A stretch of DNA of 39,941 nucleotides, from the IMG/VR virus record IMGVR_UViG_3300022752_000162, positions 1 through 39,941 of that record; one strand, written 5' to 3'. Numbering within the stretch: the stretch's first letter is position 1; each line of letters opens with the position of its first letter. Position numbers and translations under genes: made by a program. Positions 9,183 to 33,566 of the stretch are shown here, piece by piece. The DNA is from a virus. The notes beneath the pieces were generated by a model. The model saw only the letters and a program-made list of their open reading frames with translations. It had not been told where the DNA came from and ran no database searches.

Positions 9183-12100
9183 ATGGCAGAGGACTTCGGC
9201 TTCGTTCCCGATCCTCCCAAAAAGAAGGAAAAGGAAGACTTTGGGTTTATCCCCGATGATCCGGCATCCCAGACCAAGCTGGAATATGTGGAGCAGGGTG
9301 GAAAGCCAGAAGATGTTTATAGCCCAGAGCGGGCTAAGATTCTTATAGAGCAGGGGCCGGAAGCCCTCATTGCCAAACCTCCGCTTAAGCGTGGAGATGG
9401 CTCCATTGCTGGCCCAACGCTTCCAACGGAAGAAGCCCTAGCCAAAGGCCTGATTGAGAAGAGGGCCGAGCCTGCCGTGAAGAAAGCCCTCGAAGAGGGC
9501 GTAGATACAGTTTCCTCCGGCTATGATCAGGAGAAGGGCGTGGGGTTTGCCGTTGGTAGGAACAAGGATGGTAAGGTTGTTAGGGTTGAGAAGGAGCCTG
9601 ATAATTTCGGATTTGTTCCTGATGAACCTAAAAAGAAGGTAGAGGATTTCGGATTTATTCCAGATGAGCCGAAACAACAATCAGATGATCCTTCATTCCT
9701 AGGAGCCCTTGGCCGTGGGGCGATTAGGTCAGCTTTCCCGACAGCCGCAGGTATCGCCGGAGGAGCCGCCACAGGAGCCGCAATCGGAGCGGTTGCAACT
9801 GGGCCAGCGGCGGTGGTTGGTGCGCCCATTGGTGGGTTGCTTGGAGGACTGTTATTTGCCTTCGGGGCAGAAAAGCTTCAGGACTATTCAATAGATAAGA
9901 TTGTTTCGCCTGAAACCAAGAAGGCGATTGACGAGCAGTTTGCCAAGGATGCCGAGAAACAGCCAGTAGCCTCATTCGCTGGACAGGTTGCCCCATCCTT
10001 TGCCCTCTTCCGCCCAAGCCCAAGCAACCTCGCAAAGGCAGGATCTTTCGCAAAACAGATTCTATCAGGCCAAGTGACAAAGGAGGCCTTGGAAACTCCT
10101 GCCGTCAGGGAGCAGGCATCCAATCTTTTGAATGTGGCTTTTGGGGCCGGAACCCAGACTGGCTTGGAGGCCTATGGGCAGTTCGAGCGGGGCGAGTTTG
10201 ACCCGCTAAGACTTGGGGCAAGCGTGGTGATTGGAGCCCTGCAAACGGAGCCCACAAGACTTGGGAAAGCCACCATCACGGAACCGATGGCTAGGATGGA
10301 GGAGGCAATGCGGGCAAGGAAGGTAACTCCTCAAGACGCTCAAAGTGCTGACATGGCCGAACCCAAGGCCCAACAGGACGTAGCCACAACCGAGCCACAG
10401 GCTCAGGAGCAAGCTCAACCAGAAGATCCGTTTGGATTAACCGATGATCGTACAGAAATTGCAACCCAGAAGGGTTTCGCAAATCCAGAACAGAAAAAAA
10501 ATCCAAGCGACTTTTTAGTTAAGGAAGATGACATGGTTAGCCCAGAGGTTTTAGGTGATCGCCAGCCTGATGTGATTGATTATATCAGGGAGCTTGGCGG
10601 CATCCTGCCAAAGGGAAGGGCTCAGGCGGAAAAGAATTTGAGGCTTTATGGCAATAGGAGTGGGTCATCCATTAAGAGGCTTCAGGAAGCTGGGTCTATA
10701 CCAGAGTATGATGGAGCAACAAATATCAATGCAGGATATAGGAAAGAGATCGCCGGAACGATTGCTCCAGATGAAATGGCCCAAATGTTGCTTGATAATT
10801 ATGGGATTGGGGATGGATCGGTGGATAGCCTGTGGGGATCTATTTCAAAGGCAATCGAAACTAGGAACAAGAACAGGCGTTCTCTCCAAGATTTCAGGAA
10901 GGCCGGAAGACAGGAAAAGGCTTTTGTTGGAAATGTCCTTAAGCCAAAGAATCAAAACAAGGAGTCAGTCACGGCTGGCCAGTTTTACAAGGGGGACAAG
11001 TTTGTTGCCGGAGGAGAAGATTTCAGGGTTTCGGATATCAGCCCAGACACGGGTGCGGTAACTCTCACCGATGGGGACAAATATGGAACCCAGACTGTAA
11101 GGCCAGACACATCCTTATTTACAGACACAAAGCCAGTACCTCCAAATGCCAAGCAGTCCACGCCTCCATCAGAGCCACCTCCTCCAGCCAGACCCCCGAC
11201 ACAACCCACCCCTGAACCACAACCAACACCGGAACAACGCCCAACAATCCGCCAGAGATTAAAAACCGGACTTGATAACTTCCGGCGCATATTCCAAGAC
11301 AAGTTTGTTGACATTGAGAACCTTCAGAAACGCATTGAAAAAGGAAAGTTCGGCCTGCCGGATGCGGTTAATATAAAGCAATCAGAGGAACTCTTTCATG
11401 GAAGAGTTGGGGAGAGGCTTACAAGCTTTGAAGAGGGCCAAGTTAGGCCGATCATCGAAGACCTGCGGAATACTGGAATAGATCCGGCCACCTTCGAGAA
11501 ATATGCGATTGCCAAACACGCAAGAGAACGAAATGCGGTCATAGCTGGTCGTAACCCAAATATGCCTGACGGAGGTAGCGGGATGACAAATGCAGAGGCC
11601 GAAAGGCTTCTTGCCGGAGGAATCCCGCTGGATGTTCAGGCAAAGCTTGAGCCAGTCCGGCAGAAGCTTCTGGATATCAATCGCTCGACAATCAACAACC
11701 TTTTGGAAGGCGGGCTTATTAGCGCAGAAACGCATGACCTCCTGACCAAGCGATACAAGGATTATGTTCCCCTGCGAGGAACAAAGAACAGGGGTGTGGA
11801 GGGCGGTACTGAATTTGAGGCCGCAAGGATAACTGGAACTGGGAGCGGGCTAGATGTCAGGGGAAGGGACATCATAAGGGCTGGTGGTCGTGAAAGCATG
11901 GCCAACGATATTCTTGCCTATGCGGTATCGCAAAACATGGATTCTATTGTGCGCTCAGAGAAAAACAGGGTTCTCCAGACTGCGGCTAGGTTTGCTGAAT
12001 CCTTTAAGGATAACGGAGTTATAGAAAAGATTGAGGCATCCGATAAAATAAATGCGAATGATCCAGATATCATTGCCTACAAGGAGAACGGGGAAACCAA

Positions 12101-13865
12101 GTACCTCCGCATCAACGACCCTAGGTTGGCCGATGTGATGAAGAACAGGGCAAGCCCCGTGCTTGGTTCTGTGATTGAAAGGCTTGGATCACTTAATCGC
12201 TATTTTGCCCTTATCAATACGCAGGCTTCGCCGGAGTTTGTCGTTTCCAACTTTGCAAGGGATCTCCAAACAGCCTTGGTCAATATCAACTCCGATCAGG
12301 CCCAAGGCCTAGCAAGGGGATTGGTGAAGAACATTGCACCAGCCCTGAAGGCAACTTACAGGGCCGAGCTTGGCAAGCCCGATCTCGGAGGTCGCATGGA
12401 TGTCTTCTATCGGCAATTCAGGGCCGCTGGTGGAAAGATGACTTTCTTTGGATTAAAAGACTTCCAAACACTCCAGAAACAGATTCAATCCAAGCTGGCA
12501 GGAGGTGGTAGCAATGCTGGAGCAAGGGTGTTTAGGCTTGTCCTAGATAGGGTTGGTCAGCTTAACAGCGCAGTTGAGAACGCCACCCGTCTTGCCACCT
12601 TTGCCACCCTCAAGGAGCGGGGATATACCGACCAGCAGGCCGCCTATGCGGCTCGCAACATTACTGTAAATTTCACACGCAAGGGAACGGCAGGCTCCCT
12701 GATGAACGCCTTTTATCTATTCTTTAACGCCAACATTCAGGGCTCGGCTCGAATTATCCAAGCCCTCGCCACAAGCAAGAAGGTTCAGAAAATTGCCTTG
12801 GGGGCTATGACCTTTGGATTCTTTAGGGATATGGTGAACAGGATTGTAGGCGGAGAGGATGAAACAGGAATGCCGATCTACGATAAGATTCCAGAATACC
12901 AGCGCAGGCAGAACATTATTGTAATGAATCCATTTTCCGAGGAGATGGGAATCCCATACTTCAAGGTTCCAATGCCCTATGGCTATTCAGTATTTGATTA
13001 TGCGGGACAGCTTGTGGCCGACACGATGCCAAGTGATATTTATGGTGGAGGAAAGAAGCCGATGGACTCAGCCGTTAATCTAACCCTAGCGGCCATCGAC
13101 AACTTTAACCCACTTGGCGGATCTTACTCTCTCCTGCAAGCCATCGCACCGACTATCACCACTCCATTCGTTGACTCTGCCCTAAATCAGGATTTTTCAG
13201 GAAGGCCGATCATGCCTACCCCAAATCCATTTGATCCAGTACCTCCGCCAGATTCCCAGCGTTATTGGAATAATGTGAATCCGGCGAGCAAGTGGGTTGC
13301 GGAAAGGCTCAACGAGCTAACTGGGGGATCTAAAGTGAGGGCTGGATATATTGATGTAAGCCCAGAGACTCTCGACTATGGATACGAGTTCCTTACTGGC
13401 GCAGTTGGTAAATTCGGAGAGCGGGTGATGATGGCCCCGATTAGGGCGGCTAGGGTTGCGGCTGGTCAGGAAGATGTGACTGACCTTATCGGTGAAATTC
13501 CAATGGCTCGCAAGGTTACTGGGAGCGTTCCAAGTTTTGTGGATGTGAAGCGTTATCAGGATATGCGAACCGAGATCCTGACGGTTGACAGGGAACTCAA
13601 GCTGGCAAGGAAAGCTGGTGATACCGAGAGGGCTAGGGAGATCGTTCAGGACGCAAAGCCGGAACTCCGCTTGGTTAATATGATCAAGGCCACGGAACAG
13701 GATTTAAAGGAACTTCGTTCCCAAAGGCGCAGGCTTCAGGAGTTGGACAAGAGCAGGACTAATCCTGCCATTCAGAAACGACTGGATGCCAACAGAGAGA
13801 GGCAGAAGGCACTGATGATTAGGGCGTTGAAGCTATACAATTCCTCCATTGACGAGAAGATGTAA
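9183..13865 (+). CDS. 1,560-aa polyvalent internal/ejected virion protein with LPD38-like domain
   Basis: The N-terminus carries four copies of a short motif (D/N)FGF(V/I)PD at residues 4-10, 19-25, 141-147 and 155-161, each followed by acidic or lysine-rich linkers. Residues about 172-231 are Gly/Ala-rich and hydrophobic (AAGIAGGAATGAAIGAVATG), a likely membrane-inserting segment. A Pro-rich linker near 640-680 leads to a large helical region. The part reading LNRYFALINTQASPEFVVSNFARDL, then NATRLATFATLKERGY and FYLFFNANIQGSARII, matches what I know of LPD38 (large polyvalent protein associated domain). Such proteins are packaged in the head and injected with DNA. The C-terminus is a charged coiled coil. 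It is by far the longest gene here. Confidence 0.7.
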   Translation: MAEDFGFVPDPPKKKEKEDFGFIPDDPASQTKLEYVEQGGKPEDVYSPERAKILIEQGPEALIAKPPLKRGDGSIAGPTLPTEEALAKGLIEKRAEPAVKKALEEGVDTVSSGYDQEKGVGFAVGRNKDGKVVRVEKEPDNFGFVPDEPKKKVEDFGFIPDEPKQQSDDPSFLGALGRGAIRSAFPTAAGIAGGAATGAAIGAVATGPAAVVGAPIGGLLGGLLFAFGAEKLQDYSIDKIVSPETKKAIDEQFAKDAEKQPVASFAGQVAPSFALFRPSPSNLAKAGSFAKQILSGQVTKEALETPAVREQASNLLNVAFGAGTQTGLEAYGQFERGEFDPLRLGASVVIGALQTEPTRLGKATITEPMARMEEAMRARKVTPQDAQSADMAEPKAQQDVATTEPQAQEQAQPEDPFGLTDDRTEIATQKGFANPEQKKNPSDFLVKEDDMVSPEVLGDRQPDVIDYIRELGGILPKGRAQAEKNLRLYGNRSGSSIKRLQEAGSIPEYDGATNINAGYRKEIAGTIAPDEMAQMLLDNYGIGDGSVDSLWGSISKAIETRNKNRRSLQDFRKAGRQEKAFVGNVLKPKNQNKESVTAGQFYKGDKFVAGGEDFRVSDISPDTGAVTLTDGDKYGTQTVRPDTSLFTDTKPVPPNAKQSTPPSEPPPPARPPTQPTPEPQPTPEQRPTIRQRLKTGLDNFRRIFQDKFVDIENLQKRIEKGKFGLPDAVNIKQSEELFHGRVGERLTSFEEGQVRPIIEDLRNTGIDPATFEKYAIAKHARERNAVIAGRNPNMPDGGSGMTNAEAERLLAGGIPLDVQAKLEPVRQKLLDINRSTINNLLEGGLISAETHDLLTKRYKDYVPLRGTKNRGVEGGTEFEAARITGTGSGLDVRGRDIIRAGGRESMANDILAYAVSQNMDSIVRSEKNRVLQTAARFAESFKDNGVIEKIEASDKINANDPDIIAYKENGETKYLRINDPRLADVMKNRASPVLGSVIERLGSLNRYFALINTQASPEFVVSNFARDLQTALVNINSDQAQGLARGLVKNIAPALKATYRAELGKPDLGGRMDVFYRQFRAAGGKMTFFGLKDFQTLQKQIQSKLAGGGSNAGARVFRLVLDRVGQLNSAVENATRLATFATLKERGYTDQQAAYAARNITVNFTRKGTAGSLMNAFYLFFNANIQGSARIIQALATSKKVQKIALGAMTFGFFRDMVNRIVGGEDETGMPIYDKIPEYQRRQNIIVMNPFSEEMGIPYFKVPMPYGYSVFDYAGQLVADTMPSDIYGGGKKPMDSAVNLTLAAIDNFNPLGGSYSLLQAIAPTITTPFVDSALNQDFSGRPIMPTPNPFDPVPPPDSQRYWNNVNPASKWVAERLNELTGGSKVRAGYIDVSPETLDYGYEFLTGAVGKFGERVMMAPIRAARVAAGQEDVTDLIGEIPMARKVTGSVPSFVDVKRYQDMRTEILTVDRELKLARKAGDTERAREIVQDAKPELRLVNMIKATEQDLKELRSQRRRLQELDKSRTNPAIQKRLDANRERQKALMIRALKLYNSSIDEKM

Positions 13866-29643: not shown

Positions 29644-29844
29644 TTAAGCAAACAGAAGATTTCCTTGTTTGCGGATCATTCCGGCCTCGCAGAGGCCTGA
29701 GATTATGGCGTTGAATTGCTCAAGGGAGCATCCTTGCGTCATTAGCAGGGCATAGAGTGAGCCTTCCGGCGTTCCGGCTGGGTTCGTCTTGAGGGATTCG
29801 ATGATCCCATCGCATATCAGTTTAAGGGCTTGGGTTGGGTTCAT
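29644..29844 (-). CDS. hypothetical small winged-helix-like protein, 66 aa
   Basis: Product MNPTQALKLICDGIIESLKT, then SLYALLMTQGCSLEQFNAIISGL, then EAGMIRKQGNLLFA. The helix-helix-helix-beta-hairpin order is that of a mini winged helix, as used by many small DNA-binding regulators. Preceded by leader copy 3. Function unknown. Confidence 0.5.
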   Translation of the reverse strand: MNPTQALKLICDGIIESLKTNPAGTPEGSLYALLMTQGCSLEQFNAIISGLCEAGMIRKQGNLLFA

Positions 29845-30006: not shown

Positions 30007-30417
30007 TTAGACATTAGGCAGAAGTGAAAGAGTTGAGGCTTCCGCCGTGGTCAAGGGTTCGGTTTGGGAGATGTCGAATACATTGCCCCCAATAAAAAAG
30101 ATATCCTCCTTGCCTTCCTCGGTCTGCTCCTTGTTCTTCCTAGTGGCGGGGCAGAGGATCAGGAGAGACTTTTCCCCCTTCCTTACGATCCGGCCAGCCT
30201 TCCGCCATTGCTGGAAGCCCCCGACAAGGGAGACTTTGGGACGCTGAACAATCAAAAGGTAGGTATTTCGCAGGGAGAGGGGATTTCCCTCAATGGTGCG
30301 GATTCCACCCATCCGGCGGGAGATTTCGAGACGCTGGGATTCATCCAAGCGAGAGAAGCTTTCGGCAAGCTCCTTCATCTTGGCTTTCTTTTCTGCGATG
30401 GCTTGTTCTTTGTTCAT
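30007..30417 (-). CDS. ArdC N-terminal-domain protein (anti-restriction-like), 136 aa
   Basis: Matches the ssDNA-binding N-terminal domain of ArdC: NPLSLRNTYLLIVQ (45-58), then VGGFQQWRKAGRIVRKGEKS (65-84) with the G-R-x-V-x-K-G-E-K core, then FFIGGNVFDISQTEP (106-120). The zinc metallopeptidase C-domain of full ArdC (HExxH) is missing, so this is a stand-alone N-domain. ArdC proteins are carried by plasmids and phages and can protect incoming DNA from restriction. First gene of the leftward operon, read from an apparently leaderless promoter, and so probably made early. Confidence 0.75.
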   Translation of the reverse strand: MNKEQAIAEKKAKMKELAESFSRLDESQRLEISRRMGGIRTIEGNPLSLRNTYLLIVQRPKVSLVGGFQQWRKAGRIVRKGEKSLLILCPATRKNKEQTEEGKEDIFFIGGNVFDISQTEPLTTAEASTLSLLPNV

Positions 30418-30422
30418 GCAGG

Positions 30423-30474
30423 CTTATTAGCCGTAAGACTTATTAGCGTCAATAGCAACTGAGCAACTATTAGC
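30423..30474. repeat. operator repeats CTTATTAGC
   Basis: CTTATTAGC at 30423-30431 and 30439-30447, spaced 16 bp, with a third shorter copy CTATTAGC at 30467-30474. AAGACTTATTA (30435-30445) is identical over 11 bases to 17257-17267 in the other control region, suggesting one protein acts at both. The first two copies sit on the promoter, so binding would repress it. Confidence 0.55.
30424..30452 (-). promoter_or_regulatory. leftward promoter of the ArdC-like operon, predicted leaderless
   Basis: On the minus strand: -35 TTGACG (30452-30447), exactly 17 bp, -10 TAATAA (30429-30424), then 6 bases to the ATG at 30417. The expected start site is the A of that ATG, and the intervening bases hold no Shine-Dalgarno. 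The strongest promoter match I found in the window. Operator-like repeats overlap both the spacer and the -10. Confidence 0.6.
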
Positions 30475-30813: not shown

Positions 30814-31104
30814 CCGAGGACTGCGGAGGTTTTAAAGGCATAACGAAAGTATGCGGGCAGTTTTCGCCCTGCAAGGGTGCGAAGGGTTTTTGCGGTGTAG
30901 TTTGTCCTATGTCCTCGGTAAGCCAGTAAGGAACTATCCCTCTTTAGCGGGGGTGGACAATCGCAGGCTCAAGGCCTCTTATTAAGCTAGGGGGCGAGCC
31001 TAGCACCGATTGAAGGCATTACGCTTGGCGGGTTTCCCCTCTGTCATCCAAGGATCAGACTTGCTGGCATCCGGCGGGGCTTTGTGTCCTCCCCATTGAT
31101 GCCA
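30814..31104 (+). ncRNA. candidate structured RNA upstream of the packaging operon
   Basis: About 290 bases without an open frame but with many helices. P1: CCGAGGAC 30814-30821 with GTCCTCGG 30911-30918. Inside it a stem with GAAA tetraloop (GCATA 30838-30842 / TATGC 30850-30854), then GGGC/GCCC (30855-30858 / 30866-30869). Then CTATCCC/GGGGTGG (30934-30940 / 30950-30956, two G-U pairs that hold only on the plus strand). Then CAATCG/CGATTG (30958-30963 / 31007-31012) enclosing AGGCTC/GAGCCT, which competes with GCTAGG/CCTAGC. Last, TGGCATC/GATGCCA (31065-31071 / 31098-31104) enclosing GGGG/CCCC. The tetraloop and wobble pairs favour the plus strand. No known family recognised. Confidence 0.4.
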
Positions 31105-31116
31105 AGGAGACCTATA

Positions 31117-31159
31117 AAGTCTTATCTAGCCTTGTCAAACTTTTTAATGGTCTTATGGG
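31117..31159 (+). promoter_or_regulatory. candidate rightward promoter of the packaging operon, predicted leaderless
   Basis: -35 TTGTCA (31132-31137), 16 bp, weak -10 TATGGG (31154-31159), then 6 bases to ATG 31166. AAGTCTT (31117-31123) lies 8 bases before the -35, the same distance as at the integrase promoter, and the bases between are also similar. The poor -10 suggests help from an activator or a dependence on phage control. Confidence 0.35.
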
Positions 31160-31165
31160 TTTCCT

Positions 31166-31432
31166 ATGGCCTTTAACCGATGGGGCGAGAAGATCACCCG
31201 AAGAATGCGGAAAAATAAAGGGTGGAGGATGCACGAGGATGAATCGACTAGGAAAATGGCCGTAGAGCTAGGCAAGTTGAATAATAAAACCCTTACAGAA
31301 TCCGATATGGGGGATTTATGGGACAGGATGGGCAGGAAACAGCACTTGGTCGGGATTATGACGGAATGGCTCAATCGGACGCATTACAGGCAGGGGGAAG
31401 CATGGATGCCGAAAGATCGTGTGGTTTTATGA
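31166..31432 (+). CDS. hypothetical basic protein before small terminase, 88 aa
   Basis: First gene of the packaging block. The product is basic and helical (WGEKITRRMRKNKGWRMHED; MGDLWDRMGRKQHLVGIMTEWLNRTHY). No Shine-Dalgarno is visible, in line with a leaderless start. It ends in an ATGA overlap with the terminase small subunit. A DNA-binding or regulatory role is possible. No family recognised. Confidence 0.5.
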   Translation: MAFNRWGEKITRRMRKNKGWRMHEDESTRKMAVELGKLNNKTLTESDMGDLWDRMGRKQHLVGIMTEWLNRTHYRQGEAWMPKDRVVL

Positions 31433-32112
31433 ATGTAACGCCGGACACGATCAAAAAGCACGCTGGCGGAAGGCCTAGTCGGTGGAGTATCGCAACGGCG
31501 AAGAAGATTTGCGGATTCGTTAGGCGGGGGATTCCCTTGCGTTATGCTGGCCCCCTTGCGGGGGTTCCGTGGTCAACCTGTAAGGAATGGGCGGGGGAGC
31601 ATCCTGAGTTCCCGCCTATGCTTGAAGAAGCTCACTCGGCCTTCGTGCAGGATCATGTTGGGAACATTGAAAGACATTCCAGAACATCAGAGAAGGGGAG
31701 CCAATGGCTTTTAGAGCGAAGGGCTAAGGAGGAGTTTTCGGCTCCTTACACTCAGAACAACGCTTCCCAGCCCTCGCTCAATGTTCTAGCCCTCGGAGGC
31801 GATGCCCTAGCCAAGCTGATGCAGGGATGGGGCGGGATGATTGCCGGACAAACGGCGGGGCAATCGCAACCGATCCCGATTCCAGTTGAATCCCAACAAA
31901 TTCCCGACATTCAACCTACTCCTACTCTGTTGCCGGAACATATTACAGAATCTAACGAACCACCCAAAATCAAATTAGATATTCCCTCAGAGAAAATAGA
32001 AGCCCCTAAGATTGAAGAAGTTAAACCAAAAAGAGGCAGGGGAAGGCCTCGGAAGTATCCCAAGCCTGACGGGGTAGCCACACCCCCACCCCATGCCACC
32101 CCTAATTTATAG
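31429..32112 (+). CDS. terS: terminase small subunit-like protein with C-terminal AT-hook, 227 aa
   Basis: Start at ATG 31429 (ATGA); the longer frame is a shadow. Residues 16-53 hold an HTH (SIATAKKICGFVRRGIPLRY, then LAGVPWSTCKEWAGEHPEF), the usual phage terminase small-subunit DNA-recognition fold. A helical oligomerisation part (EEAHSAFVQDHVGNIERHSR) follows. The tail is Pro/Gln-rich and carries a clear AT-hook (KRGRGRPRKYPK, about 203-214), unusual for this family. It lies directly before the large subunit. It would select and hold phage DNA for packaging. Confidence 0.7.
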   Translation: MNVTPDTIKKHAGGRPSRWSIATAKKICGFVRRGIPLRYAGPLAGVPWSTCKEWAGEHPEFPPMLEEAHSAFVQDHVGNIERHSRTSEKGSQWLLERRAKEEFSAPYTQNNASQPSLNVLALGGDALAKLMQGWGGMIAGQTAGQSQPIPIPVESQQIPDIQPTPTLLPEHITESNEPPKIKLDIPSEKIEAPKIEEVKPKRGRGRPRKYPKPDGVATPPPHATPNL

Positions 32113-32162: not shown

Positions 32163-33566
32163 ATGCCTCTCGCCACTCCCGACCAACTTCCGAAGAACCC
32201 CACTCCAGAACAACTCTTAGCAACGCCGCTGGGCTTTTCCAAAATGCTCGGCATCGACCTCCACCCTTGGCAGGCAAAAGTATTTTTGGACGTTGGCCTC
32301 GGCAACCGAGTCGCCCTCAAAGCCGCCAACGGCTCCGGCAAAACCTCCTGCTTGGCGGCTCCCTTGGTTCTTTGGTGGTGTGCGGTCTATCCCAAAAGTC
32401 AGGTTGTCACCACCGCCGGAGTCTATCGTCAGGTTAAGGAGCAACTCTGGCAGAGGCTCGCCGGATGGCGGGATCGGCTGACAGGCTGGACTCTGAATGC
32501 CACCGACCTCACGGCCCCCAACGGCTCTAAGGCCATAGGCTTTTCTACTGACGAACCCAACCGCTTCGAGGGCTGGCACAACGACAGGCTCCTGATGATC
32601 TTTGACGAGGCGAAATCCATCCCTGCCGACATCTGGAGGGCGGCGGAACGCTGTCAGCCATTCGCTTGGTTGGCCATGTCTTCGACTGGCGGGATGGATG
32701 GGGAGTTTGCCCAATGCTTCCTAGGCAAGCGCAAGTTCTGGAAAAACTACTCTGTTACGGCCTTTGACTGCCCCCATATCAAAAAGGAATGGATTGATAT
32801 GCAGATTGAGCAACATGGCAGGGATAACCCATTTATTAGGAGCATGATATTCTCGGAGTTCATGGGGGAGGATGATGGGATTAGCCCCTTCACCTATTCC
32901 AAGATCCGCTTCTGTAAGGACAATCCCCCCAAGAGGATAGAAGGCCCCCCTGTGGCTTTTATTGATTGGGCCGGAGGCGGGGATGAATCCGTGATCGCTA
33001 TTAGGCGTGGAAACGTGTTAGAAGCCTTAATAGGGTGGAAGGACTCGGATACGATGAAAAGCGTTGGGAGGGCCATTGTGGAGCTAAAGAAGGCCAACCT
33101 GAAGCCTTCCGATGTCTGGGCTGACGATGGTGGGCTAGGTAAGCCAATGAATGACCGGATGCGGGAGATGGGCTGGCCCATAAGGAGACTCAACTTTGGG
33201 GGCAAAGCCTACTCTGACCGCTATGTGAACAGGGGATCGGAAATCTGGTGGGAGACGGCTAGGCAGATCGAGAGGGCTGAACTGATCCTCCCGCAGGATG
33301 AACTCTTGGATGCCCAGCTTTGTAGTCGGAAAGCCAAGATCACCTCATCTGGAAAAATGGGTCTTGAAAGTAAAGATGAAATGAAGCGCAGGGGGGTTAG
33401 CTCGCCGGATCGGGGGGATGCGGTTTGCGGGGTGTGTTGCGTGAGAAATGATTTGGGGGAGTTGACAAAGTTTGATTCCGGCAATACGGGCTCTGATTGG
33501 TTGAGCGAGATGCAGGAAACCTCGGATGGGGAATCCTCGATATCTGGCTTCGACTCAGGAGGCTAA
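32163..33566 (+). CDS. terL: terminase large subunit, 467 aa
   Basis: The ATPase domain has Walker A A54-A-N-G-S-G-K60-T61, Walker B LLMIFDEA (143-150) with catalytic E149, and coupling motif AMSSTGG. The nuclease domain has D268 (AFIDWAGGGDES), D321/D322 (VWADDGG) and a distal D416 or D419 (SPDRGDA), the RNase-H-like triad that cuts concatemers. Length is normal. It powers DNA translocation into the prohead through the portal encoded shortly downstream. No Shine-Dalgarno is visible before ATG 32163. Confidence 0.9.
   Translation: MPLATPDQLPKNPTPEQLLATPLGFSKMLGIDLHPWQAKVFLDVGLGNRVALKAANGSGKTSCLAAPLVLWWCAVYPKSQVVTTAGVYRQVKEQLWQRLAGWRDRLTGWTLNATDLTAPNGSKAIGFSTDEPNRFEGWHNDRLLMIFDEAKSIPADIWRAAERCQPFAWLAMSSTGGMDGEFAQCFLGKRKFWKNYSVTAFDCPHIKKEWIDMQIEQHGRDNPFIRSMIFSEFMGEDDGISPFTYSKIRFCKDNPPKRIEGPPVAFIDWAGGGDESVIAIRRGNVLEALIGWKDSDTMKSVGRAIVELKKANLKPSDVWADDGGLGKPMNDRMREMGWPIRRLNFGGKAYSDRYVNRGSEIWWETARQIERAELILPQDELLDAQLCSRKAKITSSGKMGLESKDEMKRRGVSSPDRGDAVCGVCCVRNDLGELTKFDSGNTGSDWLSEMQETSDGESSISGFDSGG

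Follow-up and report, generated by a model that had tools for sequence, protein, structure and literature searches.

In a group of 40-kb phages, most of them uncultured, the noncoding stretch beside the DNA-packaging genes contains a conserved, covarying structure, and the comparison of relatives supports it well as a structured noncoding RNA of a new family. The DNA studied is IMG/VR record IMGVR_UViG_3300022752_000162, whose full 39,941 nt are here called the window. The stretch followed up, positions 30814-31104, is flanked by a leftward ArdC-N-domain gene (30007-30417) and the rightward packaging operon, and had been marked in a first-pass annotation of the sequence as a candidate new RNA. 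We consider it rather probable that the stretch encodes a noncoding RNA of about 260 nt that is read leftward from about 31104 to about 30850, acts as a regulator and has a promoter shared back to back with the packaging operon.

Locus and gene neighbourhood

The genes and signals around the element are as follows.

30007-30417, minus strand: 136-aa protein with an ArdC-N domain (anti-restriction-like), opening the leftward operon in the window
30424-30452, minus strand: TTGACG-N17-TAATAA, promoter-like signal ahead of the leftward operon
30850-31104, minus strand (probable): structured noncoding RNA, about 260 nt, predicted 5' end near 31104 and predicted 3' end near 30850
31166-31432, plus strand: 88-aa open reading frame, which leads the packaging operon here but not in relatives; overlaps the start of TerS (ATGA)
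31429-32112, plus strand: small terminase subunit (TerS), likely start at 31429 in agreement with the GTG starts of relatives
32163-33566, plus strand: large terminase subunit (TerL)

The 88-aa frame, which sits between the RNA and TerS, has no match in Pfam, PHROG or PADLOC and none in a tblastn search of the relatives. A short frame, MPDQILARIYFGTTEAGR, ends on the GTG start of TerS in the relatives L001 (3222-3280) and L002 (386-444), and akin frames occur in L004 and L006; a short leader frame before TerS was rejected as not conserved across the rest of the clade. On the other side, the promoter-like signal of the leftward operon reads TTGACN-N17-TAACAA in relatives and is kept whether or not the RNA is present, and the distance from the RNA to the first leftward gene differs by several hundred bases. 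The ArdC-N gene is present in every RNA carrier with enough left flank, and L006 and L004 have neither the gene nor the RNA; this co-occurrence comes from linked sequences in few lineages and may serve as a lead only. A 66-aa protein (29644-29844) is found in most RNA carriers with enough left flank, and both it and the ArdC-N protein are missing from L006, a 38.5-kb relative without the RNA. Elsewhere in the window, a 1560-aa protein (9183-13865) is akin to very large PHROG families, among them a DarB-like antirestriction family. Akkermansia phages supply the nearest named TerL proteins (33-35% identity), which gives a weak hint of a host among the Verrucomicrobiota.

Distribution of the element

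Relatives were gathered by a TerL search of IMG/VR, which yielded 20 with TerL proteins 83-99% identical. The element is present in 14 IMG/VR phages, namely the window and 13 of these 20 relatives, and its position is constant, since in carriers it lies with shared blocks immediately upstream of the first packaging gene. A core model of 140 positions, R1, matches the window at 30956-31104 with 104.5 bits; in every carrier it has a single hit to the element, at 1e-30 or better. Four of the 20 contigs (L008, L012, L015 and L016) end before the site; the contigs of L004, L006 and L007, whose TerL is 91-92% identical to that of the window, extend well past it and gave no match to R1. The element occurs in most, not all, members of one phage clade.

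Outside this clade, the R1 search of 61 more distant TerL loci returned nothing credible, and a TerL profile search of genome contigs gave one distant relative, which is without the RNA. Among the matches listed in a loose DNA pattern scan, none beyond the known relatives fits R1; further DNA pattern scans gave no new members, and a DNA search of named phages gave no match. In Rfam 15, no family reaches its gathering threshold in the window under strict or relaxed settings, so the proposal of a new RNA is supported in this regard as well. The relaxed scans of the window and of the L020 and L001 regions returned two chance-level lncRNA matches, far below threshold and outside the RNA. The phi29 pRNA family has no Rfam match in the window, and ARAGORN found no tRNA or tmRNA in the stretch. 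A literature search, with most subscription journals outside its scope, found no description of the element.

Covariation and consensus structure

The following helices make up the proposed structure, given on the probable minus strand and in the order of window coordinates.

30863-30883, minus strand: P1, 30863-30867/30879-30883; CGCCC/GGGCG or UAGCCC/GGGCUA in relatives
30912-30932, minus strand: P2, 30912-30914/30930-30932; UCC/GGA in the window, where its homology was assigned by hand; AGGU/ACCU and GGGU/ACCC in relatives
30936-30954, minus strand: P3, 30936-30940/30950-30954; GCC/GGC, GACC/GGUC and CCC/GGG variants
30958-31012, minus strand: P5, 30958-30963/31007-31012; may close P4 and P6, with irregular pairing in relatives
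30965-30977, minus strand: P4, 30965-30968/30974-30977; minus-strand loop GNRA in 12 distinct relatives
30986-31004, minus strand: P6, 30986-30991/30999-31004; 6 bp, paired in 14 of 14 sequences, both sides changing in 4 of 6 pairs
31024-31052, minus strand: P7, 31024-31028/31048-31052; 5 bp, paired in 14 of 14 sequences
31030-31032/31037-31039, minus strand: P7b, inside P7; minus-strand loop GAAA, GAANA in relatives
31065-31104, minus strand: P8, first minus-strand hairpin; outer helix 31065-31071/31098-31104, inner helix GGGG/CCCC 31076-31079/31091-31094

Comparison across relatives gave a clear signal where folding of the single sequence gave none. The latter did not set the stretch apart from its dinucleotide shuffles (z = -0.29; 70 of 200 shuffles fold as well), and the density of helices noted in the first-pass annotation, which counted six or more, is by itself uninformative; the stretch does contain several short helices. 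In alignment A3, standard pairs fill 91.3% of the cells compared with 74.5% after shuffling, double-sided changes are found in 62 cells against 18.5 in shuffles, and the structure slid along the alignment pairs at most 49% of the cells. From A3 alone, RNAalifold proposes P4, P6, P7, P7b and P8 with double changes in 15 of 22 pairs, a result to be read with the caveat that A3 had been fitted to the proposed structure. In a tree-aware null written for this analysis and comparable to R-scape, in which the substitutions of each column are dropped anew on a FastTree tree, the columns 80/100 (P7) and 13/20 (P4) top all core column pairs with E < 0.02, and six pairs have E < 0.05 when the test is limited to the proposed pairs. 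Compensatory changes on homologues, the general test for a structured noncoding RNA, are thus present beyond phylogenetic expectation. No open reading frame common to the homologous sequences spans the stretch, as its first description as noncoding had implied.

The single helices differ in their support. P6 and P7 are paired in all sequences though most of their pairs vary, with the P7 sequence types CUUGG, CUCGU, CUCGC, CACGG and UCCGU. P8 has a conserved loop of 11 nt, and its outer helix changes in a compensatory manner from UGGCAUC/GAUGCCA in the window to UGGAAUC/GAUUCCA in L014; P3 and outer P8 rest on hand-aligned arms. P1 and P2, located in the plus-strand 5' half, are paired in 97.3% of the cells over 8 sequences with double changes in 3 pairs. 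P5, with 70% of its cells paired, is a weakly supported helix. The GCG that joins P7 to P6 and the CGC in the loop of P6 make up a candidate pseudoknot, visible by eye in most sequences, its bases being conserved.

Two helices that had been picked out from the single sequence, GCTAGG/CCTAGC (our P6) and the terminal two-part hairpin (our P8), are real and covary. Other parts of that first model did not withstand the comparison. The helix CCGAGGAC/GTCCTCGG (30814-30821/30911-30918), thought to close over 97 bases, is unconserved, with only the right arm in L014 and part of the left arm in L001 and L002; the window is a mosaic around it, changing from L001-like to L014-like. The stem with a GAAA loop near 30838-30854 is missing from L014. 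A switch had been suggested from the competition of AGGCTC/GAGCCT with P6, of which we found no sign: L014 keeps GAGCCT but has AGGTGG, and AGGC (30965-30968) pairs locally with GCCT (30974-30977), the two being replaced by AGGU/ACCU in L014.

Boundaries and exchange between phages

The ArdC-N protein and TerL of the window are 96% and 99% identical to those of L001, yet its RNA resembles that of L014 (87%), and the nearest TerL relatives L001-L003 (99%) carry a clearly different version of the element. L014 and the window are 87% identical over 30845-31104 while their flanking genes share only about 69% at the DNA level. Between about 30820 and 30900, identity to L001 drops from about 80-90% to about 30-40% and identity to L014 climbs from about 32% to about 95%; the L014-like similarity stops near 31104. 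Because the identities to L001 and L014 switch at about 30820-30900 and at 31104, the element has, as read from these alignments, been exchanged between phages in one piece, and the exchange shows where the edges of the RNA lie. The boundaries deduced in this way are sharp, on the left near 30850 and on the right at 31104. The right end of the originally marked stretch is therefore borne out; its left edge moves from 30814 to near 30850.

Strand of the RNA and promoter-like signals

In P4, the minus-strand loops are GUAA, GCAA, GCGA and GUGA, all of the GNRA type, in each of the 12 sequences that remain when the window and L014 are set aside. The minus-strand loop of P7b is GAANA in the same 12 and GAAA in the window and L014, and the sole varying base within GAANA is the one extruded in known GNRNA loops, a feature known from boxB-type loops. 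The plus-strand counterparts are UYRC and UNUUC, neither of which is, to our knowledge, a stable loop class. Folding energies are split, with P4, P7 and P8 favouring the minus strand and P6 and the whole core favouring the plus strand by about 2 kcal/mol, and counts of G-U versus A-C pairs do not clearly mark one strand. Because of the loop sequences (GNRA, GAANA) and the leftward promoter-like signal described below, the RNA is probably read from the minus strand, opposite to the packaging genes; the earlier view that a stem with G-U pairs was valid only on the plus strand is unsupported. The minus-strand reading puts the RNA ahead of the leftward operon, which has its own promoter-like signal.

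Two divergent signals with overlapping -35 boxes lie between the RNA and the first packaging gene.

31111-31138, minus strand: leftward promoter-like signal, -35 TTGACA (31138-31133), 16 nt, TATAGG (31116-31111), ending 6 nt before P8
31132-31159, plus strand: rightward promoter-like signal, TTGTCA (31132-31137), 16 nt, TATGGG (31154-31159), with the ATG at 31166 following after 6 nt

The leftward motif, TTGNNA-N16-TANNG[GAC], occurs with the same spacing in 14 of 14 carriers, at 6-8 bases from P8 in most and up to 13 in a few. Identity across carriers is 0.87 in the -35 box, 0.50 in the spacer and 0.78 in the -10 box, the spacer differing between lineages. Such a motif is found in 0.4% of shuffled regions, a rate that gives no clean probability since the motif had been noticed before testing. 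Its second hexamer is missing in L004, L006 and L007, which are without the RNA, and the rightward hexamer is kept there. The rightward layout (TTGNNAA, 16 bases, TA and a start codon 6-9 bases further on) is present in 17 of 17 loci, carriers or not. The position of the rightward hexamer, 6-9 nt before the start of the first late gene, suggests leaderless mRNAs in these phages. We predict from the arrangement a pair of divergent promoters, one for the RNA and the other for a nearly leaderless packaging mRNA. The -10 hexamers TACGGG/TATAGG are unusual and represent no standard sigma-70 box, and a consensus promoter scan called no promoter at the leftward signal of the RNA. The layout TACGGR / TTGNNAA / YCCGTA at 31132-31159 and 31138-31111 is palindromic, and the hexamer palindrome could be a protein-binding site instead of a promoter. 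A similar sequence, TTGACA-N17-TACGGG, lies at 33462-33490 within the 3' end of terL, where it may be a mere reflection of the coding sequence. No intrinsic terminator was found on the minus strand at the 3' end of the RNA.

Discussion

In the explanation that we prefer, the leftward promoter arm would start the RNA at the P8 hairpin, whereas the rightward arm would start the packaging mRNA at the first start codon or right beside it. With overlapping -35 boxes, polymerase bound in one direction would probably exclude polymerase bound in the other, making the RNA and the packaging transcript alternatives. The folded RNA would most likely bind a phage or host protein and thereby regulate the phage programme, acting either free or at the head of the leftward accessory transcript (ArdC-N), as its leader; the regulator role already considered in the first-pass annotation is in this sense possible. 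It is more speculative, and in our view rather doubtful, that the element represents a new swappable cassette whose promoter physically excludes that of the leaderless packaging mRNA, i.e. an undescribed RNA-based early/late or immunity-type switch.

Within the preferred reading, it is conceivable as a sub-case, though we would not count on it, that the minus-strand RNA serves as leader of the ArdC-N operon, in cis in the manner of HK022 put or in operon control. The RNA and the leftward genes share the strand, no minus-strand terminator was found between them, and the ArdC-N gene occurs in carriers and is missing from non-carriers; however, the leftward operon owns a promoter-like signal downstream of the RNA that is kept in phages without it, and the gap between the RNA and the first leftward gene differs among phages by several hundred bases. 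On strand, the chief rival, which appears unlikely, is a 5' leader of the packaging/late operon on the plus strand that would act in cis before TerS by antitermination, attenuation or protein sensing. Whichever gene leads, about 61-68 nt separate P8 from its start codon, several relatives have an AT-rich TATGATAAT-like stretch left of the RNA, and the energies of P6 and of the total core favour this strand. Yet the stable-loop classes are found on the minus strand only, the leftward hexamer appears and disappears together with the RNA, and an mRNA begun from the rightward signal, 6-9 nt ahead of the start codon, would start past the RNA. Rightward transcription that begins at the first start codon, to which the promoter-like signal points, would likewise count against the antitermination leader envisaged at the outset.

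Readings tied to packaging itself have to be weighed as well. Packaging sites are often located near terS, and the position next to terS, the palindromic promoter-like motif and G-U pairs that mark neither strand clearly would fit a DNA element such as a pac/cos site, an origin, a recombination site or regulator-binding hairpins that act without any RNA. Seven or more helices that covary, differ in size and carry conserved RNA-type loops (GNRA/GAANA), long conserved unpaired stretches, and the loss of the element from close relatives that must package too make this quite improbable. The proximity to terS and terL had also raised the idea of a packaging RNA within the terminase motor, comparable to phi29 pRNA. 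Such a role is unlikely in the extreme, because phages with 91-92% identical TerL (L006 and L004) lack the element in the contigs examined; moreover, the phage has a TerS/TerL pair, and such pairs work without RNA in known systems.

Among known systems, the element is best called a new RNA family within a known kind, the structured noncoding RNAs of phages. The put RNA of phage HK022 is described as binding, while still nascent, the elongation complex for early phage genes, and it shares with our element the hairpin-folded structure near the start of a phage operon (PMC9378689); the present element is larger, has several domains and probably its own promoter. Put might be at most a functional analogue. 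GOLLD and ROOL are likewise structured phage RNAs of unknown function found by covariation, but they measure about 660 to more than 800 nt and are often located near tRNA islands (PMC12286853), whereas the element described here has about 260 nt, adjoins the terminase genes and has no Rfam match to them. Phi29 pRNA is also a phage RNA encoded near packaging functions; it differs in that our element is dispensable within its TerL clade, is found with another motor type and has no Rfam match to pRNA. Structured RNA candidates from human microbiomes, some of them near phage genes, rest on the same kind of evidence, covariation and gene neighbourhood, and the main text of that study mentions no terminase-linked motif (PMC8040213).

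Collectively, the findings enlarge the small set of structured phage RNAs by one well-supported family. Its boundaries, consensus structure and probable strand are now given, which opens its function to testing, and the close relatives without the RNA together with the cassette-like swap can serve as natural controls. Should the shared promoter act in the way proposed here, these phages would possess a compact genetic switch that sets a noncoding RNA against the packaging genes.
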